Shown here: piece after piece, positions 29,774 through 53,158 of the stretch
Numbering within the stretch: the first letter of the stretch is position 1
Layout of the letters: the number at the start of each line of letters is the position of its first letter
Origin: Arthrobacter sp. DNA4
Lineage (GTDB): Bacteria > Actinomycetota > Actinomycetes > Actinomycetales > Micrococcaceae
Assembly: GCF_024362385.1 (NCBI RefSeq)
Contig: NZ_CP101466.1
Coordinates: forward strand, 62,001 to 126,000
Length of the DNA stretch: 64,000 nt
Direction of reading: 5' to 3'
Position numbers and translations under genes: made by a program
The notes under the pieces: model-generated
What the model was told of the DNA's origin: nothing
Databases searched by the model: none
The model's input: only the letters and a program-made list of their open reading frames with translations

Positions 29774-29887
29774 CGCGTCACGCCGGGCATCCTTTCAGGC
29801 AACGCACGACGGCGGGTCCCCGGGTTTCCGGGGTTTCCCCGCCTATGGTGGGCCGAAAGCCTGCCGTGCGTGATACCGTCGGCCGTC
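29774..29887. repeat. 114-bp palindromic intergenic repeat, copy A
   Basis: This is one of three related copies (others at 38047-38160 and 49008-49120). It starts CGCGTCACGCC and ends GGCCGTC, with the shared core CTTTCAGGCAACGCACGAC and GGGTTTCCGGGG. The ends form long imperfect inverted arms around an inner GC hairpin. It lies between the stop of the MFS gene and the convergent IclR stop, so it may act as a terminator or be a small mobile repeat. Confidence 0.8.
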
Positions 29888-29911
29888 TTTTAGCGGCGGC
29901 GGACGGCGGGG

Positions 29912-30740: not shown

Positions 30741-30769
30741 TTGACAGTCCTTGTGTCTCCTGTCACTAT
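30741..30769 (+). promoter_or_regulatory. Promoter of tct operon
   Basis: TTGACA at 30741-30746 and CACTAT at 30764-30769 are spaced by 17 bp. The -35 is perfect and the -10 is moderate. The IclR operator at 30789 is just downstream of the expected start point. Confidence 0.55.
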
Positions 30770-30788
30770 TTCTCAGTACGCAATATAG

Positions 30789-30803
30789 TTTCATTCTATG
30801 AAA
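30789..30803. promoter_or_regulatory. IclR operator upstream of tct operon
   Basis: TTTCATTCTATGAAA has perfect 6-bp arms around TCT. It lies 20 bp downstream of the -10 element and 29 bp upstream of the tctB start codon, a position that would block transcription when occupied. Confidence 0.6.
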
Positions 30804-30832
30804 TGCAATGACGCGCTGTGAAAAGGAAACTC

Positions 30833-31336: not shown

Positions 31337-31338
31337 GC

Positions 31339-32841: not shown

Positions 32842-32890
32842 TTCCCCACCACAACCCACATTTCCCGCACCGCTTCAAAGGAGAAGAACC

Positions 32891-33898: not shown

Positions 33899-33922
33899 CC
33901 CACAGCCCCTAAGGAACCGACC

Positions 33923-34549: not shown

Positions 34550-34592
34550 ACCGCACCACCCCCACAACGTCCCAGAAGGAACAGAGCAAACC

Positions 34593-35372: not shown

Positions 35373-35451
35373 CCGCGCAGCAGGGCACAATCAGGAACGG
35401 GAAATACGTGATTTCAACAGCAACCGGCATTCCGCCGTCAGGAGCAGCAGC

Positions 35452-36789
35452 ATGATCGGCATCTGGGCACTGGGCGCCTACCTTGCCGTCATCCTGCTTT
35501 GGACGACTGCAATCAAGCGCAGCGTGGGGGAGGCCATGATCCTGGGCTTCCTGGTGGTCCTGCCGTTTACCGGGGCCGCCGCGGCGCAGGTTGGGTGGTC
35601 GGCCTTCTATTCGGCGGCGACCGACGAGATTGTCTACGCCACCATGGCATTCGTCTTCATGGGCTACCTGTTGGATAAGGGCGGCGTGCTGGATCGGCTG
35701 ATCGACCTGCTGAACTCGCTGATCGGCGGAGTTAAGGGCGGTCCGGCCTGGGTCTCCACGGTAGCCTCCGCAGGCCTGGGCGGAGTGGTCCACAACCAGG
35801 CGGCCATCGCCGCGACGGTGGGCTCAGTGACCATTCCCTGGATGGAAAAGTCCAGGCTCGACAAGCCTGCTGCCGCAACCCTCGTGGCCGGGAACGCCGG
35901 CATGGGCATCACCTTTCCGTTCAGTGCCTCCATGTTCGTCCTGGTCGGTTCCGCCACGGTGGGGCCCCTGCTGGACATCAACGCCCTCGTCCTTCCCCTG
36001 CTGTTCGGCGGCCTGTGGTGTTTCCTGCACCGGCTCATCGTCACCTGGATGCTCATCAGGAAGAGCGGGATGGCGCCGCTCGACGCCGCCCACCGCCTGT
36101 CTGTCCGGGCCGCCTTCGGCCAGGGGTGGGCCACGCTCCTGCTGTTCGTCGTCGTCGCCATTCCCCTGGCCATCACCTCCGGGTTCCTCACCCCGGCGCT
36201 CTCGGACTGGACCGGCGGTGACGTCAGCAAGTCCGTCAGCGTCATCGTCTGGATCCCGGTGGTCCTCCTCATCACCGGTGCGCTGTTGGGCAGGAAGCAG
36301 CTGCCCCGCACCGGGCGCGACTGGGGAAACCTGCTGCAGGGCTCGGCTCCGCGGTTCGGCATCGTGGGCGTCACCGTGCTCTTCGCCTTCGCCGGAGCCA
36401 ACGCTCTGGCCGCCACCGGCCTTCCCAAGCAAATGACCGCCCTGCTGAACGGGATGAACCTTCCCCTTTGGCTGCTCGCCATCCTGATCGGGCTGATCGT
36501 CATCGCTGTCGCGGCCCCGCTGTCCGCCACGGCCACCATGGCCGCCGTCGGAACGGTCGGCGTCGCCGCCCTCGTCGCGGCCGGTGTTCCGGCCACCACC
36601 GCGGCCGTGGCTGTCCTGGTGTTCTCCTCCTGCGAGGCCGCGGTCCCGCCCGGCGGGGCACCGCTCTATGTTGCCTGCGGCATCGCGGACGTCAACCCCA
36701 TCAAGACCTTCGCCCGCCTGCTCACCCACTATGCGCTGCCCCTGCTGGTCATCGGCGTGCTGATCATCCTCGGCGTCCTGCCGATCTAA
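35452..36789 (+). CDS. DctM-like (TRAP-type) large permease
   Basis: This is a membrane protein of 445 residues with about 11-12 hydrophobic segments. It resembles the large TRAP permease DctM (MAFVFMGYLLDKGGVLDRLID, ASAGLGGVVHNQAAIAATVGS and, in the second half, SCEAAVPPGGAPLYVACGIA). TRAP systems need an extracytoplasmic DctP receptor and a DctQ membrane subunit. No DctP is encoded here, and only an 85-residue two-helix protein follows. It may use that small protein as partner, or be a receptor-less relative. It lies in the same operon as a complete TctABC set, so two carboxylate carriers are co-expressed. Confidence 0.8.
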   Translation: MIGIWALGAYLAVILLWTTAIKRSVGEAMILGFLVVLPFTGAAAAQVGWSAFYSAATDEIVYATMAFVFMGYLLDKGGVLDRLIDLLNSLIGGVKGGPAWVSTVASAGLGGVVHNQAAIAATVGSVTIPWMEKSRLDKPAAATLVAGNAGMGITFPFSASMFVLVGSATVGPLLDINALVLPLLFGGLWCFLHRLIVTWMLIRKSGMAPLDAAHRLSVRAAFGQGWATLLLFVVVAIPLAITSGFLTPALSDWTGGDVSKSVSVIVWIPVVLLITGALLGRKQLPRTGRDWGNLLQGSAPRFGIVGVTVLFAFAGANALAATGLPKQMTALLNGMNLPLWLLAILIGLIVIAVAAPLSATATMAAVGTVGVAALVAAGVPATTAAVAVLVFSSCEAAVPPGGAPLYVACGIADVNPIKTFARLLTHYALPLLVIGVLIILGVLPI

Positions 36790-36798
36790 GGAACCACC

Positions 36799-37056
36799 AT
36801 GAACACATCCCGCAGGATCACCGGAACCGTCTTCACCCTCACCCTCGCAGTCCTCCTCATCGGCGGCGTCCTGTTCGTGGCCGGGCAGGCCGCGGGCCTT
36901 GTGGCCGGGCAAAACGGCTGGCTCGAGTTCTTCAACAACGTCATCAAACCGCCCCTCTGCATTGCCGCATCGGCGTGCGCGGTGGCAGGCTTCCTGCTCA
37001 GCTACGGGCAGCCCCGGAAAGAGGCCGGGGAGAAACAGGAAGCAACCAGCCGATGA
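36799..37056 (+). CDS. Small two-helix membrane protein, possible permease partner
   Basis: This is an 85-residue protein with two hydrophobic segments (VFTLTLAVLLIGGVLFVAG and ICIAASACAVAGFLLSYG-like) and a charged tail. It is 9 bp after the DctM-like gene and overlaps the cyclase gene by 4 bp, so all three are made together. Its size and place suggest a reduced DctQ-like subunit, though DctQ normally has four helices and about 160 residues. I do not recognise a named family. Confidence 0.65.
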   Translation: MNTSRRITGTVFTLTLAVLLIGGVLFVAGQAAGLVAGQNGWLEFFNNVIKPPLCIAASACAVAGFLLSYGQPRKEAGEKQEATSR

Positions 37057-38033
37057 CTGCCCACAAACCATTTCCCACCTTCGCGGAACTCCTGGCGAGG
37101 GAGGGCAACCTGGCGGGAACATCCTGGGGCCTCTTTCCGGCCCCGGACAGGGGTACACCGTCCTTCATCACCCCCGCGGCCGTCCTGGAAGCCAGGAACA
37201 GCATCCGGACCGGCACCGTGTTCGGGTTGGACTATCCCGCTGACGCCTTTGATCCGGGCATGTCGCTCAAACGCGGTGCGCCCCGGCACACCATGTACTC
37301 CTCCCATCCGGCCCACCGGGACGACTATCTGGACGGGTACTTCCTCCAGGGATCGACCCAGATTGACGGGCTCCGGCACCGCCGGGCCGATGACGTGGGG
37401 TTCTACAACGGCGTCCCGGACCACCGGATCACCGAAGGCACCCGGGACCTGGGGATCCAGGAATGGGCCGAACACCCCATCACTGGCCGGGGCATCCTGG
37501 TGGACCTCGACGGATTCCGGAACGGCCTGGGCCAGCCCATAGACCACGCAGCCGGGGAACCTTTGGGCCTTGACCTGCTCCATGCGGCCCTGGAGTCCCA
37601 GTCCCTGGCCACGCGTCCCGGCGACATCCTCATGCTCCACACCGGGTGGTGCGAATGGTTCCTCGCGCTGGATCCGGGGGAGAAGCAGCGGCTCCGTGAG
37701 AGCCGGAAGGCAACGGGCGTGGCGCAGTCGCAGGAGTTCGTGGCCTGGGCGTGGGACAGCCGGTTTGCCGTGATTGCCGCCGACAACTTTGCCTTCGAGT
37801 GCCTCCCCGCGGTCCCGGGAAGCCCCTACCGGGAGTCCGCGTTCAACGACCACGGCATGATGCACCAGCAGCTCCTGGCCAAGCTTGGCCTGCCCCTGGG
37901 CGAGCTGTGGCGGCTCGGCCCGCTGGCTCGGCACATGCGCAGCACGGGCAGGTGGGACGCGTTCATCACCATCAAGCCGCTGAACATCACCGGGGGCACG
38001 GGCTCCCCGGCCAACGCCACCGCCATCGTGTGA
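37053..38033 (+). CDS. Cyclase-family metal-dependent hydrolase
   Basis: This is a soluble protein of 326 residues in the putative-cyclase family that contains kynurenine formamidase and isatin hydrolase. In that family HxGTHxDxPxH binds metal. Here the equivalent segment is FLQGSTQIDGLRHRR, so the first histidine is replaced by glutamine, which is the pattern of a distinct subgroup. A second conserved block reads HDxGMMHQQLL-like (NDHGMMHQQLL). The ATG overlaps the small membrane gene (ATGA). It ends the tct operon and may open a ring, lactone or amide of the imported compound. A palindromic repeat follows. Confidence 0.83.
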   Translation: MTAHKPFPTFAELLAREGNLAGTSWGLFPAPDRGTPSFITPAAVLEARNSIRTGTVFGLDYPADAFDPGMSLKRGAPRHTMYSSHPAHRDDYLDGYFLQGSTQIDGLRHRRADDVGFYNGVPDHRITEGTRDLGIQEWAEHPITGRGILVDLDGFRNGLGQPIDHAAGEPLGLDLLHAALESQSLATRPGDILMLHTGWCEWFLALDPGEKQRLRESRKATGVAQSQEFVAWAWDSRFAVIAADNFAFECLPAVPGSPYRESAFNDHGMMHQQLLAKLGLPLGELWRLGPLARHMRSTGRWDAFITIKPLNITGGTGSPANATAIV

Positions 38034-38046
38034 GCTGAGCCCGCCC

Positions 38047-38160
38047 CGCGTCACGCCGGGCATGCTTTCAGGCAACGCACGACGGCGGGATCCCGGGTTT
38101 CCGGGGCTTCCCCGCCTACGGTGGACCGAAAGCGTGCCGTGCGTGACGCCGTCGGCCGCC
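38047..38160. repeat. 114-bp palindromic intergenic repeat, copy B
   Basis: This copy differs from copy A at only about a dozen positions. The outer 21-nt arms (from CGTCACGCC to GCTTTC, and from GAAAGC to GCGTGACG) are complementary at 18 of 21 positions. They enclose a second stem, GGCGGG with CCCCGCC. It starts 14 bp after the cyclase stop codon and 71 bp before the next gene. Confidence 0.8.
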
Positions 38161-38230: not shown

Positions 38231-38920
38231 ATGACGAAGCTGCAGCCCGCCGCCAACCATTCAGGCCTCGACGCCGACGCTGTTGCCTCCGGGATCGAGC
38301 CGAACCCCGCCGGGGTCATCGCGCTGGAACCGGCGCTGGCCGGGATCTGGGAACTCACCGCGCCGTACTTGACGGTCCGGGACAACGACGCCCATACCCT
38401 GTACGCCTTCGGCCTGGCCCGCGCCCTGCTGGACGCCCACCCGGACGCGGACGCCGCCGTCGTGCTCCCCGCCATCCTGCTGCACGACATCGGCTGGTCA
38501 CAGGTCCCGCCCGGCGACGTCCTGGCCGCCATTGCACCGGGCGGCGGCAGGCCGGACCTGGTGCTGCTGCACGAAAAGGAGGGGGCGCGCCTGGCCGCGG
38601 ACATCCTCGCGGAGTGCCGTTATGACCGCACCAGGATCCCCGCCATTCTCAACATCATCGACGGCCACGATTCCCGGCGGGAGGCCCTCTCCATCGAGGA
38701 CGCAATCGTCAAGGACGCGGACAAGACCTGGCGCCTCAGCCCGCACGGGATCGACACCGTCATGGACTGGTTCGGGCTGGACCGCGGACAGGCCCTGCGG
38801 CTCTGCTCCCAGCGCGTGCACGGCCACCTGTTCACCGCAGAGGCCCAGGCCATGGCGCGGGCACTGTCGGCACTGGAATCGGTCACCCTCTGGCCGCAGC
38901 GGCAACGCCTGCTTGGCTGA
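38231..38920 (+). CDS. HD-domain phosphohydrolase-like protein
   Basis: This is a soluble HD-superfamily protein of 229 residues. The metal motif is LLHDIGW near residue 86, and IIDGHDSR near 142 supplies further ligands. It is clearly paralogous to the HD protein at 46716: both share PDADA, LLHDxGW, the HExxG segment, IIDGHDxR, ED-A--DAD--WR and WFG. That second copy sits inside the Cre-like operon, where it is the likely phosphatase. This one stands alone between the tct operon and the IclR gene at 39018. It may act on a similar aryl phosphate or on a related small molecule. The ribosome-binding site is weak. Confidence 0.8.
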   Translation: MTKLQPAANHSGLDADAVASGIEPNPAGVIALEPALAGIWELTAPYLTVRDNDAHTLYAFGLARALLDAHPDADAAVVLPAILLHDIGWSQVPPGDVLAAIAPGGGRPDLVLLHEKEGARLAADILAECRYDRTRIPAILNIIDGHDSRREALSIEDAIVKDADKTWRLSPHGIDTVMDWFGLDRGQALRLCSQRVHGHLFTAEAQAMARALSALESVTLWPQRQRLLG

Positions 38921-39017: not shown

Positions 39018-39812
39018 ATGGCCGGCGGCAGCCGCGACCCCGGACGCACCGTGACGTCCAAAGTGCTGTCCATCCTGGAAGCCTTCGAGACCTCCCGCGG
39101 CGCCCTGAGCCTGACCGACATCGCGGACAAATCCGGGCTGCCGCTCAGCACCGCGCACCGCCTGGTGAACGAACTGACGGACTGGGGATTCCTGTCGCGG
39201 GAACCGAACGGCCGCTATCAGCTGGGCATCCGGCTGTGGGAGCTGGCGCAGAACACCGGCCGCCAGCTGCGCGATGCCGCCCACCCCTACATCCAGGACC
39301 TGTTCTCGCTGACCGGCGAGACGGCACATCTGGCCATCCGGGCCGGCAATGAAGTCCTGTACATCGACCGGGTCTACGGCTCCAAGCGGGTGCCCCGCGC
39401 ATCCCGGGTGGGCGGCCGCCTTCCCATGTACGCCACCGCCGTCGGGAAAGTCATCCTGGCGTTCGAAGACGACTGGGTGCGCGACGCCTACCTGCACCGG
39501 GACCTGGAACGCGCCACCGCCCACACCCACATCGACCCGCAGAAATTCACCGCCGAGCTGGCGGACATCCACGCGCAGGGCTACGCCACCACCCTCGAGG
39601 AAGTGCGGCTTGGCTCATGCTCCATCGCGGTCCCGGTGTTCCATACAGGCCGGATTGGCGCCGCCATCGGCCTGGTGCTGCCCACCGCCCAGGCGTCCAC
39701 CATGACCAGGTACCTTCCCGTCCTCAAGGGCATATCGGCCCAGATCGAAAAGGCCACAGCACGCATCCCCCTGGAGACACTGATCGGCGTCCACAAAGGA
39801 CCTCGCGGCTGA
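39018..39812 (+). CDS. IclR-family transcriptional regulator of Cre-like operon
   Basis: This is an IclR-family regulator of 264 residues. The winged HTH covers about 10-70 (VTSKVLSILEAFETSRGALS, LPLSTAHRLVNELTDWGF). The effector domain follows (RVGGRLPMYATAVGKVILAF, LEEVRLGSCSIAVPVFHTG). GAGGAGG precedes the ATG. It lies directly upstream of the P450-dikinase operon on the same strand, where C. glutamicum also has a dedicated regulator for p-cresol genes. Possible targets are the palindrome GACCACACTGGTC at 39866-39878 and the weak TTTCCG-type site at 39822. Confidence 0.88.
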   Translation: MAGGSRDPGRTVTSKVLSILEAFETSRGALSLTDIADKSGLPLSTAHRLVNELTDWGFLSREPNGRYQLGIRLWELAQNTGRQLRDAAHPYIQDLFSLTGETAHLAIRAGNEVLYIDRVYGSKRVPRASRVGGRLPMYATAVGKVILAFEDDWVRDAYLHRDLERATAHTHIDPQKFTAELADIHAQGYATTLEEVRLGSCSIAVPVFHTGRIGAAIGLVLPTAQASTMTRYLPVLKGISAQIEKATARIPLETLIGVHKGPRG

Positions 39813-39821
39813 GGCCATTCG

Positions 39822-39838
39822 TTTCCGTCCAGTGGAAG
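39822..39838. promoter_or_regulatory. Degenerate IclR-type operator, site 4
   Basis: TTTCCGTCCAGTGGAAG resembles the TTTCCG-N5-CGGAAA sites at 18234, 21935 and 23860, with two mismatches in the right arm. It lies 100 bp before the Cre-like P450. It might allow cross-control with the other aromatic cluster, or be fortuitous. Confidence 0.35.
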
Positions 39839-39865
39839 CCCGCGCTGTCCCTGCCCGGTGATGTG

Positions 39866-39878
39866 GACCACACTGGTC
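39866..39878. promoter_or_regulatory. Palindrome upstream of Cre-like operon
   Basis: GACCACACTGGTC has perfect 5-bp arms around CAC and lies 59 bp before the P450 start codon. It is a candidate site for the IclR protein encoded just upstream. The evidence is only shape and position. Confidence 0.35.
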
Positions 39879-39937
39879 ACTAAGAACCCCCCGCCGCCCT
39901 GAGGCGCCGGACGGAGCCAAAGTCACCAGGAGTCACC

Positions 39938-41215
39938 ATGTCATCGTCGACAGAAACGGCTGGCCGCTGTCCTTTCGGGTACGGCGCCGAAGCCCCCGCC
40001 GGGCACCACGGCTACGAACCCTTCCAGATGAAGGATCCCTTCACCGCCTACGCAGAACTCCGGGCCGAGCAGCCCGTGATGTTCGATGAGCGTACCGGCC
40101 TCTACGTCGTCTCCCGCTACGACGACATCAAAGCCGTCTTCGAGGACTGGGAAACGTTCTCCAGCGAGAACGCACAGGCCCCGGTCCGGGAGCGGGGACC
40201 CGCCGCGAAAAAGATCATGGAGGACGGCGGGTTCACCGCCTACTCCGGCCTGTCCGCCCGCCGTCCGCCGGAGCACACCCGCATCCGCGCCGTGGTGCAG
40301 AAGGCCTTCACGCCCCGCCGGTACAAGGCCCTGGAACCGTTCATCCGGCAGAACGTGGTGGACCTGCTCGAAAAGATGCTTTCCCGTGAAGAGCGCCGCG
40401 GGGACCTGGTCAAGGACCTGGCCTACGACGTTCCCACGATCACCATCCTCACCCTGATCGGGGCCGACGTTTCCCAGGTGGACACGTTCAAGCGCTGGTC
40501 GGACTCCCGGGCCGCCATGACCTGGGGCGACCTCAGCGACGAACAGCAGATCCCGCATGCCCACAACCTGGTGGAGTACTGGCAGGAATGCCTGCGCCTG
40601 GTCCGGGTGGCCCACGAACAGGGCGGCGACAACCTCACCGCAGACCTGGTCAAGGCCCAGCAGGACGGCGCCGAGATCTCGGACCACGAGATTGCCTCGG
40701 TCCTGTACAGCCTGCTCTTCGCCGGCCACGAGACCACCACCACCCTCATCTCCAACGCCCTGCGCGAGCTCCTGGCGCGACCGGAGCAGTGGCAGCAGCT
40801 GGTGGACGATCCTAAGAAGATCCCCGCCGCGATCGACGAGGTCCTCCGCTACGCAGGCTCCATCGTCGGATGGCGCCGCAAGGCCCTGAAAGACACCGAG
40901 GTGGGCGGCGTTCCCATCGAGAAGGGCTCGCAGTTGCTGCTCCTGATGGGCTCGGCCAACCGCGATGAAACCAAGTTCACCGCCGGCGAGGACTTCGACA
41001 TCACCCGGCCCAATGCCCGCGAGCACCTTTCCTTCGGATTTGGCATCCACTACTGCCTGGGCAACATGCTCGCCAAGCTCCAGGCAAAAATCGCGCTCGA
41101 GGAAGTGGCCCGGCTCGCCCCCAGGCTGCAGCTCGACGCCCCGGAGGACATCGCCTTCCGCGAAAACCTCTCCTTCCGTGTTCCCGAGACCGTTCCTGTC
41201 ACCTGGAAGGCCTAA
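39938..41215 (+). CDS. Cytochrome P450, CreJ-like (alkylphenyl-phosphate hydroxylase)
   Basis: This is a soluble P450 of 425 residues. The I-helix motif is FAGHETTTT, the ExxR region is DEVLRYAG, and C373 in FGFGIHYCLG is the heme ligand. CCAGGAG precedes the ATG. It heads an operon with a split dikinase, an SDR, a 2Fe-2S ferredoxin, a ferredoxin reductase, an HD protein and an aldehyde dehydrogenase. The same set of activities forms the Cre pathway of C. glutamicum, where CreJ oxidises the para-alkyl group of an alkylphenol only after its hydroxyl is phosphorylated. I infer the same role from operon content; P450 sequence alone would not show it. Confidence 0.88.
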   Translation: MSSSTETAGRCPFGYGAEAPAGHHGYEPFQMKDPFTAYAELRAEQPVMFDERTGLYVVSRYDDIKAVFEDWETFSSENAQAPVRERGPAAKKIMEDGGFTAYSGLSARRPPEHTRIRAVVQKAFTPRRYKALEPFIRQNVVDLLEKMLSREERRGDLVKDLAYDVPTITILTLIGADVSQVDTFKRWSDSRAAMTWGDLSDEQQIPHAHNLVEYWQECLRLVRVAHEQGGDNLTADLVKAQQDGAEISDHEIASVLYSLLFAGHETTTTLISNALRELLARPEQWQQLVDDPKKIPAAIDEVLRYAGSIVGWRRKALKDTEVGGVPIEKGSQLLLLMGSANRDETKFTAGEDFDITRPNAREHLSFGFGIHYCLGNMLAKLQAKIALEEVARLAPRLQLDAPEDIAFRENLSFRVPETVPVTWKA

Positions 41216-41220
41216 GCACC

Positions 41221-42300
41221 ATGCACAGCAATGACTATGTCCAGTTCTTCGACGGCGGCATTGAGCCGAAGCTTGAAAACCTCGGCGGCAAGGGCGCGTC
41301 CCTGGTCACCATGACGTCCGCCGGCATGCCCGTTCCGCCCGGATTCGTCGTCACCACCGCGCAGTTCGATGCCTTCATGGACGAAGCCGGCATCACGGCG
41401 AAAATCCACGAACTGCTCGCCGGCCTCGACCCGGAGGACACGCGGCAGGTGGACCAGGTGTCCGCAGCCATCCGCGAGGACATTTGCTCCCGCCCGGTAC
41501 CGGAGGCCCTGCGCAGTATGACCATTGCCGCTTATGAATCGCTGATGGCCCGCTTCGACGCCCCCGTCCCGGTGGCAGTGCGCTCCAGCGCCACCGCCGA
41601 GGACCTGCCGGACGCTTCCTTCGCTTACCAACAGGACACCTACCTTTGGCTGGATGGCGTCAAGGCAGTCACCGACCACATCCGCCAGTGCTGGGCGTCG
41701 CTCTACACCTCCCGCGCCATCATCTACCGGCTCAAGAACAGCATCCCCAACGAAGGCCTGTCGATGGCCGTAGTGGTGCAGAAGATGGTCAACTCCAAGG
41801 TCTCCGGCGTGGCCATCACCATGGACCCCACCAACGGCGACCGGTCCAAGATCACCATCGATTCCTCCTACGGCGTGGGCGAGATGGTGGTCTCCGGCCA
41901 GGTCACCCCGGACAACATCGTGCTGGACAAGGTGACCCTCGCCGTCGTCAGTGAGCACCTGGGCGACAAGCACGCCGAGCTGGTCCCGGACGCCGGTGCC
42001 AAAGGGCTGGTTGAACGCGAGGTCGACGACGAACGCCGGGGCCGCCGCAGCCTCACCGACGCCGAGCTCACCGCCGTCGCCCAGATGGCCAAGCGGGCCG
42101 AGAAGCACTACAAGTGCCCGCAAGACATTGAGTGGGCCCTCGACGCCGACCTCCCGGACGGCGAAAACCTGCTCCTCCTGCAGTCCCGGCCGGAAACGGT
42201 CCACTCCTCCAAGCCCGCACCGGTGACCGCGCCCCAACCGGTCGTCACGGGCGGCTACTTCAGCGGACTGAGCACCCCCGCGCTCAAGCCGACTGCCTGA
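41221..42300 (+). CDS. PEP-synthase-like ATP-binding subunit (aryl phosphate synthase, CreH/CreI-like)
   Basis: This is a protein of 359 residues made only of the N-terminal ATP-grasp domain of PEP synthase/pyruvate phosphate dikinase (PPDK_N). It shows LGGKGASLVTMTSAGMPVPP, VAVRSSATAEDLPDASFAYQ and a final LLLLQSRPETV. There is no swivelling histidine domain and no PEP/pyruvate barrel. The next gene supplies the histidine domain. This two-part layout is that of phenylphosphate synthase in anaerobic phenol degraders and of CreHI in C. glutamicum, which use ATP to phosphorylate the phenolic hydroxyl. It lies 5 bp after the P450 gene. Confidence 0.85.
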   Translation: MHSNDYVQFFDGGIEPKLENLGGKGASLVTMTSAGMPVPPGFVVTTAQFDAFMDEAGITAKIHELLAGLDPEDTRQVDQVSAAIREDICSRPVPEALRSMTIAAYESLMARFDAPVPVAVRSSATAEDLPDASFAYQQDTYLWLDGVKAVTDHIRQCWASLYTSRAIIYRLKNSIPNEGLSMAVVVQKMVNSKVSGVAITMDPTNGDRSKITIDSSYGVGEMVVSGQVTPDNIVLDKVTLAVVSEHLGDKHAELVPDAGAKGLVEREVDDERRGRRSLTDAELTAVAQMAKRAEKHYKCPQDIEWALDADLPDGENLLLLQSRPETVHSSKPAPVTAPQPVVTGGYFSGLSTPALKPTA

Positions 42301-42361
42301 CCCCCATCCGAGGCTTCACCCCCACCAAGGCTCACCGCCGAGCCCTCCTGAAAGGACCGCC

Positions 42362-44230
42362 ATGTCCATGAAGTCGTTCCCCAAGCCCTCCGAGCTGCCG
42401 GTTCCCGCCGGGGCCGAAGGCTGGGAAAAGATCTACCCCTACTACCTGGTGTTCCAGGACAAGCTCAAGGAGCAGGAGGACGCCAAGTTCTGGTTCTGCG
42501 ACAGCCAGCACTGGCCCACCGTGTTCAAGCCCTTCGAGACCATCGGCGGCGAATTCGCGGTCAAGTGCCTGGGCCAGTACAACGCCCGGCACCTGATGAT
42601 CCCCAACGCCAACGGCATCGAGTTCCGCATCCACCTGGGGTACCTCTACATGTCCCCCATTCCCGTCCCGGAGGATCAGATTGCCGCCCGTGTGCCGCTG
42701 TTCGAGCAGCGCGTCGGCCACTACTTCCAGAACTGGGAGCAGCTGCTCAAGGAATGGCACGTCAAGGTCAAGGGCACCATCGCCGAGATGGAGACCATTT
42801 CCTTCCCCAAGCTGCCGGACATGGTCCCCATGGAGGACATCACCTCCGGCAAGGGCAAGGACGGCTCCGAGAAGCTCCTGGAAAGCTACGACCGCCTCAT
42901 CCAGCTGGCCTACCAGAACTGGCAGTACCACTTCGAGTTCCTGAACCTGGGCTACATCGCCTACCTGGACTTCTTCAACTTCTGCAAGCAGGTCTTCCCC
43001 AACATCCCGGACCAGTCGATCGCCAGCATGGTCCAGGGCGTGGACATGGAACTGTTCCGCCCCGATGACGAGCTCAAGCAGCTCGCCAAGCTTGCCGTCG
43101 AACTGGGCCTCCAGCCCCACTTTGGAAACACGGACGACGTCGAGGCTACTTTGGGTGCCATCGCCGCCGCCCCGGGCGGGGACCGCTGGCTGGCCCAGTA
43201 CGAAGGTGCCAAGGACCCGTGGTTCAACTTCACCGTGGGCAACGGCTTCTACGGCCACGACAAGTACTGGAACGTGAACCAGGAAATCCCGCTGGGCTAC
43301 ATCGCCGACTACATCCGGCGCGTGGACGAGGGCCAGGAGATTATGCGTCCCGTCGAGGCCCTCATCGCCGAACGCGACCGCATCATCGAGGAATACCGTG
43401 ACCTCCTTGAAGGCGAGAACCAGGCAGTCTTCGACGCCAAGCGCGGCCTCGCTGCCACCGCCTACCCCTACGTGGAGAACCACAACTTCTACATCGAACA
43501 CTGGACCATGGGCGTCTTCTGGCGCAAGATCCGCGAACTCTCCCGCATGATGCATGCCGAGGGCTTCTGGACCCAGCCGGACGACCTGCTCTACCTGGGC
43601 CGCAACGAGGTCCGCGACGCCCTCTTCGACCTGGTCACCGGGTGGGGCGTGGGTGCCAAGCCCATCGGCCCCGACTACTGGCCCGAGGAGATCGAACGCC
43701 GCCGCGGCATCGTGGACGCCCTCAAGACCGCCCGCCCCGCGCCGGCCCTGAACACCCCGCCGGCATCCATCACCGAACCCTTCACCCGGATGCTCTGGGG
43801 CATCACCACCGAACAGGTCCAGCAGTGGCTGGGAGCCGGTGAAGAAGTGGAAGGCGGCGGACTGCGCGGCATGGCCGCCTCACCCGGCGTGGTGGAAGGC
43901 CTGGCCCGCGTGGTCACCGACGCCGACCAGCTCTCCGAGGTGCAGCAGGGCGAAATCCTGGTGGCCACGGTGACGGCTCCCTCCTGGGGTCCCATCTTCG
44001 GCAAGATCAGCGCCACGGTCACGGACATCGGCGGCATGATGAGCCACGCCGCGATCGTGTGCCGCGAATACGGCCTGCCTGCCGTCACCGGCACGGGCTC
44101 CGGATCCACCACCATCAAGACCGGCCAGCGGCTGCGTGTGGACGGCACCAAGGGCACGGTCCAGATCCTGGACGCCGAGGACGACCTCGTGGTTGCCGGA
44201 CCCGGCGCCCACAGCCACAGCCATGTCTGA
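42362..44230 (+). CDS. PEP-utilising phosphotransferase subunit (aryl phosphate synthase, CreH/CreI-like)
   Basis: This is a protein of 622 residues. The last 110 residues are the swivelling phosphohistidine domain of PEP-utilising enzymes: ILVATVTAPSWGPIF, then GGMMSHAAIVCREYGLPAVT with the phospho-accepting histidine in SHAA. The first 480 residues (FWFCDSQHWPTVFKPFE, GLQPHFGNTDDVEATLG) are not the PEP barrel and probably hold the phenol-binding site. Together with the ATP-grasp subunit upstream it would form a phenylphosphate-synthase-like kinase: ATP charges the histidine, and the phosphate moves to the phenol. GAAAGGA precedes the ATG. It resembles the larger subunit of CreHI. Confidence 0.85.
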   Translation: MSMKSFPKPSELPVPAGAEGWEKIYPYYLVFQDKLKEQEDAKFWFCDSQHWPTVFKPFETIGGEFAVKCLGQYNARHLMIPNANGIEFRIHLGYLYMSPIPVPEDQIAARVPLFEQRVGHYFQNWEQLLKEWHVKVKGTIAEMETISFPKLPDMVPMEDITSGKGKDGSEKLLESYDRLIQLAYQNWQYHFEFLNLGYIAYLDFFNFCKQVFPNIPDQSIASMVQGVDMELFRPDDELKQLAKLAVELGLQPHFGNTDDVEATLGAIAAAPGGDRWLAQYEGAKDPWFNFTVGNGFYGHDKYWNVNQEIPLGYIADYIRRVDEGQEIMRPVEALIAERDRIIEEYRDLLEGENQAVFDAKRGLAATAYPYVENHNFYIEHWTMGVFWRKIRELSRMMHAEGFWTQPDDLLYLGRNEVRDALFDLVTGWGVGAKPIGPDYWPEEIERRRGIVDALKTARPAPALNTPPASITEPFTRMLWGITTEQVQQWLGAGEEVEGGGLRGMAASPGVVEGLARVVTDADQLSEVQQGEILVATVTAPSWGPIFGKISATVTDIGGMMSHAAIVCREYGLPAVTGTGSGSTTIKTGQRLRVDGTKGTVQILDAEDDLVVAGPGAHSHSHV

Positions 44231-45011
44231 ACGGGACATGCCCTCAGGCGAATATTCCGCTGAAGGCATGAACGAAAAGACGGTCCTTATCACCGGCGCC
44301 GCGGGCGGGCTGGGCAGGGCGTTCGCGCTCGGTTTTGCTTACCGTGGATACCGGGTGGCGGTGGCGGACATCAATCTCGAGGGTGCCGAACAGACCGCCA
44401 AGCTGGTCCGTGAAGCGGGCGCCCACGCCGCTGCCTTCGCCGCCGACGTGACCGACGTCGACTCCACGGAGCAGCTAGCCGCAAGCTGCGTGGAGTTCGG
44501 CAACGGCCGCATCGACGTCGTCCTCAACAACGCGGCGGTGTACGCGGGGGTGACCCGCAGCCGCTTCGAGGACATCAATCCGGCCGAATGGGACCTGGTG
44601 ATGAACGTCAACCTCAAGGGACCCTGGCTGGTGACCCGTGCCGCGAGCCCCTACCTGGGGGAAGGCGGACCCGTCATCAACCTTTCCAGCGCCACGATCT
44701 TCAGCGGCTCCGAGCAATGGGCGCACTACGTCGCCTCCAAGGGCGGCGTGGTGGCACTCACCCGGGTCATGGCCAAGGAACTGGGTCGGCGGGGGATCAC
44801 GGTGAACGCGATCGCCCCCGGCTTCACGCTCACCGAGGCCAGCTACGGACTGATGGAAAATGCCGAGAACTACGGCGTGGACCGCGGCGCCATCAAACGC
44901 GCCAGCCAGCCCGAGGACATTGTGGGCGCCGCCCTGTTCCTCGCCGGGCCTGACAGCTCTTACTACACCGGCCAGACCATGGTGGTGGACGGCGGTAAGC
45001 AGTTCATCTGA
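44223..45011 (+). CDS. SDR-family alcohol dehydrogenase (CreG-like role)
   Basis: This is a classical short-chain dehydrogenase of about 262 residues (or 247 from the ATG at 44268, which begins MNEKTVLITGAAGGLG). It has the TGxxxGxG motif, NNAA, the catalytic S and the YxxxK motif in HYVASKGG, and the C-terminal TGQTMVVDGG. The ATG at 44223 overlaps the stop of the previous gene, which suggests coupling, but no Shine-Dalgarno sequence is clear for either start. In the Cre pathway an alcohol dehydrogenase oxidises 4-hydroxybenzyl alcohol to the aldehyde. This gene fills that position, though the C. glutamicum enzyme may belong to another dehydrogenase family. Confidence 0.85.
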   Translation: MSERDMPSGEYSAEGMNEKTVLITGAAGGLGRAFALGFAYRGYRVAVADINLEGAEQTAKLVREAGAHAAAFAADVTDVDSTEQLAASCVEFGNGRIDVVLNNAAVYAGVTRSRFEDINPAEWDLVMNVNLKGPWLVTRAASPYLGEGGPVINLSSATIFSGSEQWAHYVASKGGVVALTRVMAKELGRRGITVNAIAPGFTLTEASYGLMENAENYGVDRGAIKRASQPEDIVGAALFLAGPDSSYYTGQTMVVDGGKQFI

Positions 45012-45060
45012 CCGGCCACCCCCGCCCCCATCCAACCAACTTCAAGCAAGGAGGACCACA

Positions 45061-45381
45061 ATGCCAACGGTTCACTTCACCGACGCAGAAGGCACCGTCC
45101 GGGACGTCGAAGGCAATGCAGGCGATTCGGTCATGGAAACCGCGGTGCGCAACGGCGTCCCCGGCATCGTGGCCGAGTGCGGCGGTTCGCTGTCCTGCGC
45201 CACCTGCCACGTCTTCGTCCGCGAGGACTGCGCCTCGCAGCTGCCCGCCATGGAGGACATGGAGGATGAAATGCTCTATGGCACTGCCGTGGACCGTGAG
45301 GACAACTCCAGGCTGTCCTGCCAGCTCCGCCTGACGGAGGAGCTGGAACTCTTCGTCACCACCCCCGAAACCCAGGTGTAG
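45061..45381 (+). CDS. 2Fe-2S ferredoxin, adrenodoxin/putidaredoxin type (CreF-like)
   Basis: This is a soluble [2Fe-2S] ferredoxin of 106 residues. The cluster cysteines are in CGGSLSCATC (C-x5-C-x2-C) and in SRLSCQL near residue 87. This is the adrenodoxin/putidaredoxin type that delivers electrons to class I P450s. A strong AAGGAGG ribosome-binding site precedes the ATG, which suggests high expression. It lies between the SDR gene and the ferredoxin reductase gene, and it should feed the P450 at the head of the operon. Confidence 0.93.
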   Translation: MPTVHFTDAEGTVRDVEGNAGDSVMETAVRNGVPGIVAECGGSLSCATCHVFVREDCASQLPAMEDMEDEMLYGTAVDREDNSRLSCQLRLTEELELFVTTPETQV

Positions 45382-45383
45382 CC

Positions 45384-46685
45384 ATGGGAACGCAGGCAGT
45401 AGAGCGGGAAGCCGGAACGGCCACGGTTCCCACCAGGACCGGGCTCCTGATCATCGGCGCCAGCCAGTCCGGCGTGCAGTTGGCGGTATCGCTCCGGGCG
45501 CTGGGCTTCGACGAACACATCACCCTGCTGGGGGACGAGGACCACCGCCCGTACCAGCGGCCGGCGCTGTCCAAGGAGTTCCTGCAGGGCACCGTGGAAA
45601 GCGAATCCCTCATCTTCCGGTCCAACGACTACTGGGCCGAGCACAACGTGGACCTGGTCAAGGGCGAATACATCGTCCGGATCGACAAGGACGCGGACGG
45701 TTCCGGGGTGGCGCATGCGTCCTCGGGCCGGGAGTTCCCGTTCAAGCGGCTGGCCCTCACCGTCGGCGCCCGTGCCCGGAAGCTGGAGATCGAGGGCAGA
45801 GGCCTGGACGGCGTGCTCTACCTCCGCAATGCCCACGACGCCCTGGCACTGAAGGCAAGAGTGGGCGACGCCACGGATGTGGTGGTGATCGGCGGCGGGT
45901 TCATCGGCCTGGAGGCCGCGTCCAGCCTGCAGAAGATGGGTAAAAATGTCACCGTGCTCGAGTTCGGGCCGCGGCTGGTGGGCAGGGCCGTAGGGGAGGA
46001 GACCGCCGAATACTTCCTGCAGGCCCACCGGTCCCGCGGCCTGGATATCCGCCTCAACACCAGTGCGGCGCGCTTCACCGCTGACGACGGCGGCACCCGG
46101 GTTGCCGCCGTCGAACTCCAGGACGGGACGGTACTGCCGGCGCAGATCGTCCTGATCGGCATCGGCGTCATTCCCAACACGCAGCTGGCAGAACAGCTGG
46201 GCCTGGCCGTGGACAACGGCGTGGTGGTGGACCGGTTCGCGCTGGCCTCCGACGGCACCACGGTGGCCGTGGGGGACGTCGCCAACATGCCCAACCCCGT
46301 TCCCGGCTCCGAGCCCGGGAAACGGATCCGGCTGGAAAGCGTCAACAACGCCATCGAGCACGCCAAGGTGGCCGCCTATTCGCTGACCGGACGGCGCGAG
46401 GAATACGCCGGCATCCCGTGGTTCTGGTCCAACCAGGCGGACCTCAAGCTGCAGATCGCCGGCCTGTGCAACGGCTACGACCAAACCGTGGTCCGGAACG
46501 ACCAGGAACGCGGAAAATTCAGCGTCCTCTACTACCGCCAGGGCCGCATCATCGCCGCGGACTGCGTCAACGCACCACTCGACTTCATGGCCGTCAAGAA
46601 CGCGCTCGCCAAGGGCCTCAACATTCCCGCCGAAGCGGCGGCAGACCCCGGCACCCAACTCAAGACCATCACCACGGACGGCTAG
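45384..46685 (+). CDS. FAD-dependent ferredoxin reductase (CreE-like)
   Basis: This is a soluble NAD(P)H:ferredoxin reductase of 433 residues, of the putidaredoxin reductase type. The FAD motif is LLIIGASQSGVQLAVSLRAL, the substrate-proximal RPYQRPALSKEFL is diagnostic of the family, the NADH motif is VVIGGGFIGLEAASSL, and VAVGDVANMPNP closes the flavin site. It starts 2 bp after the ferredoxin stop codon. With the ferredoxin and P450 it gives a complete three-component monooxygenase inside one operon. Confidence 0.92.
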   Translation: MGTQAVEREAGTATVPTRTGLLIIGASQSGVQLAVSLRALGFDEHITLLGDEDHRPYQRPALSKEFLQGTVESESLIFRSNDYWAEHNVDLVKGEYIVRIDKDADGSGVAHASSGREFPFKRLALTVGARARKLEIEGRGLDGVLYLRNAHDALALKARVGDATDVVVIGGGFIGLEAASSLQKMGKNVTVLEFGPRLVGRAVGEETAEYFLQAHRSRGLDIRLNTSAARFTADDGGTRVAAVELQDGTVLPAQIVLIGIGVIPNTQLAEQLGLAVDNGVVVDRFALASDGTTVAVGDVANMPNPVPGSEPGKRIRLESVNNAIEHAKVAAYSLTGRREEYAGIPWFWSNQADLKLQIAGLCNGYDQTVVRNDQERGKFSVLYYRQGRIIAADCVNAPLDFMAVKNALAKGLNIPAEAAADPGTQLKTITTDG

Positions 46686-46715
46686 CCGCGAGGCCGGTCA
46701 ACCCGAAGGAGCATT

Positions 46716-47486
46716 ATGAGCACCCCCAAGACGCCGTTTGCCCCGGCGGAGCCCGGCACCGCCGCCGGCAGCGCCCCCGGCACCGCACCGGACACGGGCG
46801 ACGCCCTGGCCGATGCCTTTGCCGCTGAGTACAGCGTCCGGCCCATTCCCGCCCCGGGACCCGTGGATACCACCCCCATCACGGGCACCCCAGCGGCCCT
46901 GGACTCGCTCGACGCGCTCTGGAAAGCAGTGGTCCACGAAACCAGGACCCGCGGCAACGACATCCACCTGCCCATCTCCCTTGCCTTCGCCGAACGGCTG
47001 TGCCGGGCCTACCCGGACGCGGACGCCGAACTGGTCCGGGTGGCAACGCTGCTGCACGACACCGGCTGGGCCCACGTGGATGAGTCCCGGATCCTCTCGG
47101 AAGGGTTCACGGGGGACTGGCGCAAGGCCACCATCCGCTATGAGCACGAGAAGCAGGGCTGCGACGTGGCCCGACGGGTCCTCCCCGGACTGGGCTACGC
47201 CCCCGGCTTCGTGGACCAGGTCTGTGCGATCATCGACGGCCACGACACCCGGCCCGTGGCCCGCTCACTGGAGGACGCGCTGATGCGTGACGCCGACAGG
47301 CTGTGGCGGTTCGACCACGCCGGCATCGCCCTGGCCTCATCCTGGTTCGGGATGGACCCCGCCACCTACACGGACCGGCTGGCCGCCGAAATCATCCCGG
47401 AACTCATCACTGAGGCTGCCCTGGAGATGGCCACCGCGGACCTCTGCCGGTCCAACGCCCTGCTGAAGACGGCGGTGATCCGATGA
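46716..47486 (+). CDS. HD-domain phosphohydrolase (CreD-like role)
   Basis: This is a soluble HD-superfamily protein of 256 residues. An N-terminal tail rich in Ala, Pro and Gly of about 60 residues precedes the domain. The metal motif LLHDTGW lies near residue 110 and IIDGHDTR near 172. In the Cre pathway CreD removes the phosphate from the oxidised aryl phosphate. The HD fold and the place in the operon make this the matching enzyme, although I cannot confirm that CreD itself has the HD fold. AAGGAG precedes the ATG. Its stop overlaps the aldehyde dehydrogenase start by 4 bp. A paralogue lies at 38231. Confidence 0.82.
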   Translation: MSTPKTPFAPAEPGTAAGSAPGTAPDTGDALADAFAAEYSVRPIPAPGPVDTTPITGTPAALDSLDALWKAVVHETRTRGNDIHLPISLAFAERLCRAYPDADAELVRVATLLHDTGWAHVDESRILSEGFTGDWRKATIRYEHEKQGCDVARRVLPGLGYAPGFVDQVCAIIDGHDTRPVARSLEDALMRDADRLWRFDHAGIALASSWFGMDPATYTDRLAAEIIPELITEAALEMATADLCRSNALLKTAVIR

Positions 47487-48997
47487 CCTCCGCCACGCAC
47501 GACGCACCCGCCCTGGCCACACGGTCCGGCCTTGCCCTGCCGCACACCCACGTGGACACCATCTACTACGACGGCGCCTGGCAGCGTTCCCGGGGCATCG
47601 GCCGCAACCCGGTCACCGACCCCGCCACCGGCGAAATCTGGGGCTCGGTCCCGGACGGCACCCCGGACGACGTGGACGCCGCCGTCGGATCCGCCCACAA
47701 GGCGTTCGCTGGCGAATGGCCCCGGCTGGCACCGTCCGGGCGGGCCGCCTACCTGCTCCGGATCGCCGACGAAGTGGAGAAACGCGCTGACGAACTCTCC
47801 CTGACCAACTCGCGGGAGAACGGATCCCCGGTGGCCGAATCGTCCGGTGCCGCCGCCAACGCCGCCGGGATCCTCCGCTACTTCGCCACCCTGGCCGGTT
47901 ACCTGGAACAGGAGGACGTCCGGCCCTTCCCCCGCGGCGGCGGCGAATCAGTGGTGCGGCGCGATCCCCTGGGCGTCTGCGCCCTGATCGCCCCGTGGAA
48001 CTTCCCCATCAACCTGGTGATGATCAAGCTGGCGCGGCGCTGCTGGTACTGCACCGTGGTGATCAAACCGGCGTCCCCCACCCCGCTGTCCATCCGGGTG
48101 ATCATCGACGCCATTGCCGCAGCAGGCGTCCCGGCCGGCGTCGTCAACCTGGTCACCGGCTCCGGCCGCCTGGGTGACGTGCTGGTCAAGCACCCCGGAG
48201 TGGCCAAGGTGGCGTTCACGGGTTCGACGCCGGTGGGCCGCAAGATCGCCGCGGCCTGCGGCGGGCTGCTGCGCCCGGTCACGCTGGAACTGGGCGGCAA
48301 GTCCAGCGCCATCGTCCTGCCGGACGCGGATTTGGACGCCATGTCCCGGGTGCTGATCAAGTCCTCCATGCGCAACACCGGGCAGACCTGCTACATCTCG
48401 ACCCGCATTCTGGCCCCGGCCAGCCGCTACGACGAAGTGGTGGACATGGTTACTGCCACAATTGCCGCCGGGAAACAGGGTGATCCGTTGGATCCCGAGA
48501 CGGTGTTTGGCCCCTGCGCCACCGAATCGCAGTACCGGACCGTCATGGAGTACGTTGAGTCCGGGCTGGCTGAAGGCGCCCGCGCCACCACTGGAGGGCG
48601 CGCTGCGTCGCTGACCGGAGGGTTGGAGAACGGCTACTTTGTGGAGCCCACGGTGTTCGCCGACGTCACCCCGGACATGCGGATCGCCCGCGAAGAGATC
48701 TTCGGGCCGGTGATCACCATCCTCAAATACAACGACGCCGGCGGCAGTGTCGAGGAGGCAGTGGCGCTGGCGAACAACACTGAATTCGGCCTGGGCGGCC
48801 TGGTGTTCGGCCGGGACGAGGACGCCGCGCTCGCCGTGGCGGACCGCATGGACACGGGCTCGGTGGGACTGAACTTCTTCGCCTCCAACCACTCCGCCCC
48901 GTTCGGCGGCCGGCATGACTCCGGGCTGGGCACCGAGTACGGGATCGAGGGCCTCAACGCCTACCTGAGCTACAAGTCGATCCACCGGAAAAGGTAG
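47483..48997 (+). CDS. Aldehyde dehydrogenase (CreC-like, 4-hydroxybenzaldehyde oxidation)
   Basis: This is an NAD(P)-dependent aldehyde dehydrogenase of 504 residues. The cofactor motif is IAPWNFPINL, the glycine turn is AFTGSTPVG, the general base is in LELGG, and the catalytic cysteine is in NTGQTCYIS. All active-site residues are present. It is the last gene of the Cre-like operon and would make 4-hydroxybenzoate or a homologue from the aldehyde. A third copy of the palindromic repeat starts 10 bp after the stop codon. Confidence 0.9.
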   Translation: MTSATHDAPALATRSGLALPHTHVDTIYYDGAWQRSRGIGRNPVTDPATGEIWGSVPDGTPDDVDAAVGSAHKAFAGEWPRLAPSGRAAYLLRIADEVEKRADELSLTNSRENGSPVAESSGAAANAAGILRYFATLAGYLEQEDVRPFPRGGGESVVRRDPLGVCALIAPWNFPINLVMIKLARRCWYCTVVIKPASPTPLSIRVIIDAIAAAGVPAGVVNLVTGSGRLGDVLVKHPGVAKVAFTGSTPVGRKIAAACGGLLRPVTLELGGKSSAIVLPDADLDAMSRVLIKSSMRNTGQTCYISTRILAPASRYDEVVDMVTATIAAGKQGDPLDPETVFGPCATESQYRTVMEYVESGLAEGARATTGGRAASLTGGLENGYFVEPTVFADVTPDMRIAREEIFGPVITILKYNDAGGSVEEAVALANNTEFGLGGLVFGRDEDAALAVADRMDTGSVGLNFFASNHSAPFGGRHDSGLGTEYGIEGLNAYLSYKSIHRKR

Positions 48998-49007: not shown

Positions 49008-49120
49008 GCGTCGCGCCAAGCATGCTTTCAGGCAGCGCACGACGGCGGAAGCCAGGATTTCCGGGGCTTCCCCGCCCAAGGTGGGCCGAAAGCGTGCCGT
49101 GCGTGACGCCGTCGTCCGTC
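49008..49120. repeat. 113-bp palindromic intergenic repeat, copy C
   Basis: This is the most diverged of the three copies. It still has GCATGCTTTCAGGCAGCGCA at its left and GAAAGCGTGCCGTGCGTGAC at its right, with TTTCCGGGGCTTCCCCGCC inside. It lies between the stop of the aldehyde dehydrogenase and the convergent MOSC gene. Confidence 0.8.
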
Positions 49121-49144
49121 TTGCGTCTTGCAGGGCTGGGCCTG

Positions 49145-49717
49145 CTACGGCAGGCGGGACGGACGGAGGACGCTCGCCTCGCCTGCCTGCGCAGGGTCCA
49201 GCGGCACCGGGCTGACCAGCACGGCAGGACCCTGGTGCAAAAATCCACTGGAGACGGCCCGGCAGCGGATGCCGCCACGGCCGCGCATGGCCGGATGGGC
49301 GCCGGGGGCGAGCATTTCGTTCATCCAGGCGCAGGGCTGGGCGTGCCGGCCCCCGTGCAGGGTCACCGAGGAGTCGCCGGATTCCAACACGAAGTCCTGC
49401 CCCAGCAACGGCACCAGCTGGGCTCCGCGCAGCACCAGGTTCCGGCGGGTCAGCAGCGGATCGAACGGCGCCGTGCCCAACTCGGCGGCGATGGCCTCGA
49501 GGGACTCCACGGCGAACAGGGTTACCGCAGCGTCCATGTGCGCGGCCCTGCCGAAGAAACGGTCGCCCACGATGCCCTTGCTTACCACCACCTCAGCCTG
49601 CGGAGCATCGGTGGTGGGGACGTCGGCTGCGCCGTCGCGGGCACGGCCAAAGTACGCGTGCGCGGGGGATACCAGCAGGTGCAGGATCTCGACGTCGTAC
49701 CGGAACTTTTCGGGCAT
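49145..49717 (-). CDS. MOSC-domain protein
   Basis: This is a soluble protein of 190 residues. It has the MOSC beta-barrel pattern: SKGIVGDRFFGR at the usual start of the domain and the conserved cysteine in GGRHAQPCAWMNEML. MOSC domains bind sulfur-carrying or molybdenum-cofactor-type ligands; YiiM-like members reduce N-hydroxylated compounds. I set the start at the ATG at 49717, which begins MPEKFRYDVEIL; the open frame goes further without support. No partner gene is adjacent. Its exact reaction is unknown. Confidence 0.78.
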   Translation of the reverse strand: MPEKFRYDVEILHLLVSPAHAYFGRARDGAADVPTTDAPQAEVVVSKGIVGDRFFGRAAHMDAAVTLFAVESLEAIAAELGTAPFDPLLTRRNLVLRGAQLVPLLGQDFVLESGDSSVTLHGGRHAQPCAWMNEMLAPGAHPAMRGRGGIRCRAVSSGFLHQGPAVLVSPVPLDPAQAGEASVLRPSRLP

Positions 49718-49779
49718 ACGGCCAAGCGTAGGCCAGCCCGGCATTGAAATCCTGCCGCCGGATGGAAGGATCAGGAACC

Positions 49780-50754
49780 ATGGAGACCACACCCGCCGGC
49801 CAAGCCAGCGCGCCGCCCAGGAAACGGACGGCCCTTTTCTGGGCATCGGCAGGGTGCGCTGCCGCCCTGACCGGGGTTGCGCTGTGGATGCTGGCAGGGA
49901 ACCCCGCCGTCCTGGGCGGCCACCCGCTGCTGCCGGGCATCCTCCTGGCAGCGGCTGCCGCCGGTGCCGGCTGGGCAGCTCTGCTCTGGCGCCGCCGCGA
50001 TGTCCCCCGGCCCCGCTCCCGCGTCCGGGCCGTCGCGGCGTGGGCCGGCAGGGTTGCCGTCCTGGCGCTCGCCGCCGGGCTGGCCTGGCTCAGCCCCTTC
50101 GCCTACCAGCCGGGCCCGACGGCGGAGGCCGGGCCGGCGTCGGACCTCACCGTCACCGAAACCAGCACCGCCATCACCATGTCCCCCGAGGCAGCCAACA
50201 CCACCAAGGGACTGGTCTTCTACCCGGGCGCACGCGTGGACGCCCGGGCCTACCAGGACATCCTGGGCCCCGTGGTGGGCGCCGGGTACCGGGTGGTCAT
50301 CCTGAAGGAGCCGCTCGGGCTGAGCCTGCTGGACGGCAACCAGGCCCGCAGCGCCATCGAGGACAACCCGGACATCACCACGTGGGCGGTGGGCGGCCAC
50401 TCCCTGGGCGGGGTGTCCGCATCGTCATTCGCCCTGGCGAACACCGACATCAAAGGCCTGGTCCTGTACGCCTCCTACCCGGTGGAATCGCTGCGGGGAC
50501 GGCCCGGCCTCTCCGTCCTGTCCGTCTCCGGGACCAAGGACGGTCTCAGCACGCCGGACAAGATCCAGGCCTCCCGGGAACTCCTGCCCCCGGACACGGA
50601 GTTCGCCGCGGTCCAGGGCGGAGTGCACGCGTTCTTCGGTGACTACGGTGCACAACCGGGCGACGGCGAGCCCGGCATCAGCCGCAGCGCCGCCCAGCAG
50701 CAGGTCGCCGCCGCCACCGTCAGCTTCCTGGGTCAGCTGCCGGGCGGACGCTAA
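49780..50754 (+). CDS. Membrane-anchored alpha/beta hydrolase
   Basis: This is a protein of 324 residues with three N-terminal hydrophobic segments (WASAGCAAALTGVALWML, LLPGILLAAAAAGAGWAALL, AVLALAAGLAWLSPFAY). An alpha/beta hydrolase domain follows (alpha/beta_hydrolase_5 type). The nucleophile elbow is GGHSLGG with the catalytic serine near residue 209, an aspartate follows in SGTKDGL and a histidine in VHAFFGDYG. The hydrolase domain should face the outside. The ATG at 49780 has AGGA upstream. It is divergent from the MOSC gene and its substrate is unknown. Confidence 0.82.
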   Translation: METTPAGQASAPPRKRTALFWASAGCAAALTGVALWMLAGNPAVLGGHPLLPGILLAAAAAGAGWAALLWRRRDVPRPRSRVRAVAAWAGRVAVLALAAGLAWLSPFAYQPGPTAEAGPASDLTVTETSTAITMSPEAANTTKGLVFYPGARVDARAYQDILGPVVGAGYRVVILKEPLGLSLLDGNQARSAIEDNPDITTWAVGGHSLGGVSASSFALANTDIKGLVLYASYPVESLRGRPGLSVLSVSGTKDGLSTPDKIQASRELLPPDTEFAAVQGGVHAFFGDYGAQPGDGEPGISRSAAQQQVAAATVSFLGQLPGGR

Positions 50755-50770
50755 GCAGGGTCCAGCGGCT

Positions 50771-53158
<2,388 letters not shown>

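Follow-up and report, generated by a model that had tools for sequence, protein, structure and literature searches.

Phosphate-primed oxidation of p-cresol (4-methylphenol) was reportedly worked out in Corynebacterium glutamicum, and Du 2016 and Du 2017 are said to be the primary papers on this cre pathway. The gene table of PMC7764795 assigns the C. glutamicum cluster as cg0637 (creC), cg0638 (creD), cg0639 (creE), cg0640 (creF), cg0641 (creG), cg0642 (creH), cg0644 (creI), and cg0645 (creJ). We analyzed a window of 64,000 nucleotides from Arthrobacter sp. DNA4 (NZ_CP101466.1, positions 62001 to 126000 of a 4.56-Mb single-contig genome), in which positions 39018 to 48997 carry an operon with the same eight genes as that table in the identical order, creJ-I-H-G-F-E-D-C. 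Gene order, sequence, and context support this assignment well and confirm, at the level of sequence, a complete and ordinary Cre operon of a known type. Very probably, it serves the oxidation of p-cresol.

Gene content of the operon

The interval holds nine closely spaced frames, all open and on the plus strand, and Pfam backs all nine products, from the IclR regulator to the aldehyde dehydrogenase.

39018..39812, + strand: IclR-family regulator, 264 amino acids (Pfam IclR_C, HTH_IclR)
39823..39837, + strand: operator-like site TTCCGTCCAGTGGAA, TTCC-N7-GGAA, between the IclR gene and creJ
39938..41215, + strand: creJ-like class I cytochrome P450, 425 amino acids (Pfam p450; heme motif FGFGIHYCLG)
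41221..42300, + strand: creI-like ATP-grasp kinase subunit, 359 amino acids (PPDK_N, 360.9 bits)
42362..44230, + strand: creH-like substrate/swivel (PEP-utilisers) kinase subunit, 622 amino acids (NF006150, 1288 bits; motif TDIGGMMSH; placed by tree)
44223..45011, + strand: creG-like short-chain dehydrogenase/reductase (SDR) (adh_short_C2, 199 bits; motif YVASK)
45061..45381, + strand: creF-like 2Fe-2S ferredoxin, 106 amino acids (Pfam Fer2; motif CGGSLSCATC)
45384..46685, + strand: creE-like ferredoxin reductase, 433 amino acids (Pyr_redox_2 and Reductase_C)
46716..47486, + strand: creD-like HD phosphohydrolase, 256 amino acids (Pfam HD domain)
47483..48997, + strand: creC-like aldehyde dehydrogenase, 504 amino acids (Aldedh, 488 bits; motif GQTC)

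The SDR start at 44223 was judged against a related locus (L014), with an alternative ATG at 44268, and the creC-like start overlaps the creD-like end by 4 bases. The creD-like product is 68% identical to its Corynebacterium orthologue (L055). A first-pass annotation of this DNA had claimed the same gene set and order, tight spacing, and an IclR gene in front, all of which the open frames, Pfam matches, and signature motifs bear out.

The P450 is identical at 309 of 404 residues (76.5%) to PDB entries 5GWE/5XJN, which we take to be CreJ. It scored about 716 bits against 5XJN/7CCF and 5GWE, entries titled merely "Cytochrome P450," and the next-best chain reached 246 bits. On sequence, the protein is assigned to the CreJ (CYP288A) subfamily; CreJ is named CYP288A2 in PMC9357085.

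The kinase and the proposed pathway

For comparison we used 82 cre loci, namely, those of the best 80 of at least 542 confirmed hits (out of at least 591 pattern matches) and two Rhodococcus plasmid loci. The large kinase subunit of the window (H) matched NCBIfam model NF006150 over its full length at 1288 bits. Models for rifampicin phosphotransferase (RPH) and phosphoenolpyruvate (PEP) synthase aligned to it solely at about residues 494 to 604, its last ~110, and solved structures likewise matched only there. Against the RPH model, with its cut-off of 999, the two kinase parts scored 110.7 and 264.5 bits. A 31-row tree placed the window subunit and 25 cre-locus kinases in one clade (support 100/99), apart from five outgroup kinases encoded on plasmids of Azoarcus, Rhizobium, Thermomicrobium, Natrinema, and, unannotated, Rhodococcus JS3073; the end branches of these five are long, so that the relations among them are unsure. 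The window subunit shares 98% identity with its counterpart in Pseudarthrobacter sulfonivorans RIT817. The catalytic His562 is directly preceded by Ser561, and a serine at this place was found in 81 of the 82 cre-locus kinases (the pattern missed the remaining one) and in four of the five outgroup kinases, with cysteine in JS3073. In the passages of PMC12167813 covered here, serine precedes the catalytic histidine in CreH and PpsA, and cysteine does so in HpeH. In the tree, the large subunit sides with cre-locus kinases and not with the five outgroup kinases, and its model matches set it apart from rifampicin phosphotransferases and PEP synthases, in line with the kinase type that the first-pass annotation had proposed, and we assign it, from its sequence, to the CreHI type rather than to the RPH, PEP synthase, Hpe, or Pps types.

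Drawing on work on C. glutamicum and HpeHI, we infer each reaction and its substrate by analogy. CreI would bind ATP and hand its beta-phosphoryl group, via His562 of CreH, to the phenol oxygen, so that 4-methylphenyl phosphate forms. Its methyl group would then be hydroxylated by the P450 CreJ, supplied by the ferredoxin CreF and the reductase CreE, and the HD hydrolase CreD would take off the phosphate. Oxidation of the alcohol and then of the aldehyde, by the SDR CreG and the aldehyde dehydrogenase CreC, would yield 4-hydroxybenzoate, which PobA and PcaGH, encoded elsewhere in the genome, may take further. The IclR protein probably controls the operon through the putative TTCC-N7-GGAA site. 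This motif was found in 45 of 63 gaps between IclR and creJ, a count that is partly circular because the motif was chosen after the gap alignment had been viewed; in 200 letter shuffles the mean was 0.12 and the largest value 2. It also occurs at five other positions in the window.

Toluene-4-monooxygenase yields p-cresol. Its genes adjoin the cre operon on plasmids of Rhodococcus oxybenzonivorans and Rhodococcus ruber (L106, 1 to 3451; L108, 14667 to 17803), and a pobA-like gene (49 to 91% identical to the PobA-like gene of the Arthrobacter genome) lies inside the fetched flanks of 18 of the 82 loci. These neighbors in relatives fit p-cresol entering the pathway and 4-hydroxybenzoate leaving it. 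The Cre-type reading of the first-pass annotation is thereby supported along four lines, all drawn from sequence: the C. glutamicum gene order, the P450 identity, the kinase clade, and the neighbors in relatives. One of the two Rhodococcus plasmids was typed as conjugative.

The foremost alternative is the same chemistry on another substrate, 4-ethylphenol, 4-propylphenol, or a lignin-derived 4-alkylguaiacol, giving a hydroxyacetophenone or a homologue. The sequence does not fix the length of the alkyl chain, and the same proteins serve an engineered alkylphenol-oxidation system as described in part of PMC9549646, so the family takes more than p-cresol. We nevertheless consider this alternative unlikely, as the toluene-4-monooxygenase and pobA-like neighbors count against it and a terminal aldehyde dehydrogenase suits a pathway that turns a methyl group into an acid.

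Several points weigh against a p-cresol Cre operon. The ATP-grasp subunit (I) falls under the cut-off of every NCBIfam model that it matched and scores best against PEP synthase models (343.6 bits, cut-off 598). Taken alone, it cannot be separated by score, with 238.6 bits for a PEP synthase (PDB 9dae) and 236.3 bits for 9goj, which is HpeI in the relevant passage of PMC12167813. The kinase comparison was made against Corynebacterium relatives (L055, 78%) in place of C. glutamicum CreH and CreI, and C. glutamicum CreH was not among the 120 matches listed in a protein search from its relative L055. Finally, the PobA-like protein of the genome, at 416.7 bits, falls below the TIGR02360 cut-off of 538.7; PcaH, at 348.3 bits, lies above its own.

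That the kinase opens some other route through a phosphorylated phenol, such as the Hpe carboxylation of a hydroxyphenylethanone or Pps/Ppc phenylphosphate carboxylation, appears extremely improbable. Homologous kinases do so, and among the outgroups the Azoarcus kinase (L103) lies with ppc genes and the Rhizobium kinase (L104) with biotin carboxylase and HAD hydrolase genes; however, no carboxylase, including the biotin-dependent hpeCBA, occurs among the operon products, the kinase falls in the cre clade, and the P450, ferredoxin, and reductase genes stand in the same gene run. Equally negligible is a split rifampicin phosphotransferase or PEP synthase unrelated to phenols, to which the PEP synthase score of the ATP-grasp part would point, since such models cover no more of the large subunit than its last ~110 residues and five other PPDK_N proteins in the genome are available for such roles.

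The Cre arrangement recurs widely. The run JIHGFEDC is unbroken in 70 of the 82 loci, and IclR directly precedes creJ in 61, by an order string that is blind to strand and gaps; in one locus (L024), the IclR gene and the P450 gene lie about 4.5 kb apart, with other genes between them. Twelve loci lack the unbroken run (L029, L031, L037, L047, L056, L066, L076, L085, L086, L089, L092, and L093); several of them end at contig edges, and in L047 and L066 the E gene is split. Two others (L037 and L085) show H-G-F-E-D-C with neither the P450 (J) nor the ATP-grasp subunit (I) beside H in the fetched stretch. L089 and L093 are variants without ferredoxin and ferredoxin reductase genes, and their kinases form a branch of their own (100/100). 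A haloarchaeal plasmid (L107) carries a two-part kinase (38%) beside ring-dioxygenase-like, aldehyde dehydrogenase, and metallophosphoesterase genes. L014, L015, and L024 have a further kinase pair (36 to 39%) downstream of the operon; it was considered as a phenol kinase and rejected: the L014 frames encode an 818-amino-acid PEP-synthase-like protein after a 278-amino-acid frame that, by eye, resembles its regulatory partner.

HD1 and the repeat-bounded block

A second HD gene precedes the regulator, and direct repeats flank the whole block. Neither had figured in the first-pass annotation.

38231..38920, + strand: HD1, second HD-domain protein (Pfam HD domain), paralogue of creD
29775..29889, + strand: direct repeat copy A, left edge of a neighboring 8.3-kb segment
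38043..38160, + strand: direct repeat copy B, left edge of the HD1-to-creC block
49008..49122, + strand: direct repeat copy C, right edge of the HD1-to-creC block

HD1 is 35% identical to the window CreD over 198 residues, and in a tree, 22 HD1 and 26 CreD sequences were split by a 100/100 branch. Both groups keep the histidine and aspartate residues that characterize HD enzymes (39 HD1 and 70 CreD orthologues aligned). Of the 82 loci, 40 have HD1 at more than 50% identity within the stretch fetched, 36 of them arranged as HD1-IclR-JIHGFEDC; the 40 are a lower bound, as a P. sulfonivorans HD1 (P0184, 81%) lies outside the fetched part, apparently on the contig of L014. Elsewhere, HD1 stands downstream of creC (L043 and L053), between IclR and creJ (L063), or on the opposite strand (L058). 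Among 149 family genomes sampled, the kinase was present at 75% identity or more in 28 (two of eight in the genus of the window), HD1 at 54% or more in 25, and both in 22 (Fisher p 6.7e-18, with kinship ignored); four kinase matches of 46 to 47% (G104, G007, G001, and G133) and six HD matches of 34 to 40% had been excluded before the count. HD1 occurs without the kinase in G050, G111, and G141. In G050 it is followed by two creC-like pieces (79% and 78%), suggestive of a deleted operon, and no creC-like piece was seen in the HD1 stretches read from G111 and G141. HD1 is distant from the operon in several genomes, e.g., G121, G135, G060, and G133, and its neighbors in G133, G082, and G148 gave no hint of cre. 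A Sinomonas-like genome (L121) has an HD1 and IclR pair apart from the operon, within a few kilobases of a PobA-like frame and an MFS transporter. The 120 HD1 homologues listed bear generic names, and no report on HD1 was found in the literature searched, which covered few subscription papers.

Copies A, B, and C are in the same orientation and represent a palindromic element of ~110 bp; only these three reach at least 91% identity over ~100 bases within the genome, with diverged copies scattered across the genus. A known RNA was set aside as an explanation, given that Rfam gave no match in the window and that folding of the repeat was only modestly better than that of shuffles (z of -1.65 to -2.30). 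The segment bounded by A and B includes genes for a DctM-type transporter and a cyclase-family protein (35452 to 38033).

In two genomes of the same genus (G181 and G153), one segment each is precisely absent at these boundaries. In G181, window positions 26252 to 38158 and 49008 to 51895 align adjacently and overlap on one repeat copy, an exact empty site; the left flank of this single copy resembles that of B and its right flank that of C. G181 is without a cre-type kinase and holds no more than a 45% relative at another place. In G153, the operon is present (kinase 99%) and the A-B segment is absent, with a single repeat copy there as well; both segments are present in G158, where the stretch read shows no C copy. 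Loss or gain by way of the repeats is thus well supported in one case for cre and in one for the neighboring segment. Recombination between repeats as the sole route of loss was rejected, since G150 and G164, neither of which has a cre-type kinase, lack the block at junctions without a repeat. The MOSC gene downstream of the operon in the window was in the flank of none of the 80 best-scoring loci, some of them cut by contig ends, so the operon occupies different places in different species. A foreign composition indicative of recent origin was not seen in the G+C content, at 67.1% for the block and 66.9% and 67.1% for its flanks.

It is possible, if doubtful, that HD1, as an old CreD paralogue retained beside the regulator, acts on another phosphorylated intermediate, giving a two-HD Cre pathway that is widespread in actinobacteria, and that recombination between the ~110-bp repeats moves or removes the block like a cassette. 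HD1 might then act on 4-methylphenyl, 4-formylphenyl, or 4-carboxyphenyl phosphate, and could rescue dead-end phosphates or clear the inducer of the regulator.

Comparison with known phenol-kinase systems

The probable p-cresol Cre operon described here places phosphate-primed oxidation in a soil actinobacterium and at many other actinobacterial loci, some of them plasmid-borne beside toluene-4-monooxygenase genes, and it offers a diverged set of CreJ and CreHI enzymes for biocatalysis. Its interest lies chiefly in HD1 and the cassette-like boundaries, and the linked CreD paralogue poses a concrete and cheap biochemical question. Beyond the genes tabulated for the C. glutamicum cre cluster, the window has HD1 ahead of the regulator and ~110-bp repeats at both edges of the block; HD1 at more than 50% identity was not seen in the fetched stretches of three Corynebacterium loci (L054, L055, and L059).

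Two other systems begin similarly. HpeHI of Rhodococcus rhodochrous GD02, which acts on acetovanillone, shares the two-component dikinase and the initial phosphorylation of the phenol, as set out in the parts of PMC12167813 and PMC9618137 covered. The Hpe pathway differs in proceeding by carboxylation and beta-elimination with a NagD-like phosphatase, in using no P450, and in having cysteine before the catalytic histidine. PpsAB of Thauera/Aromatoleum has homologous kinase halves and the same proposed pyrophosphorylation of histidine, again as presented in PMC12167813, but it is anaerobic and is followed by a UbiD-like carboxylase, and the window kinase is 44% identical to the Azoarcus example.

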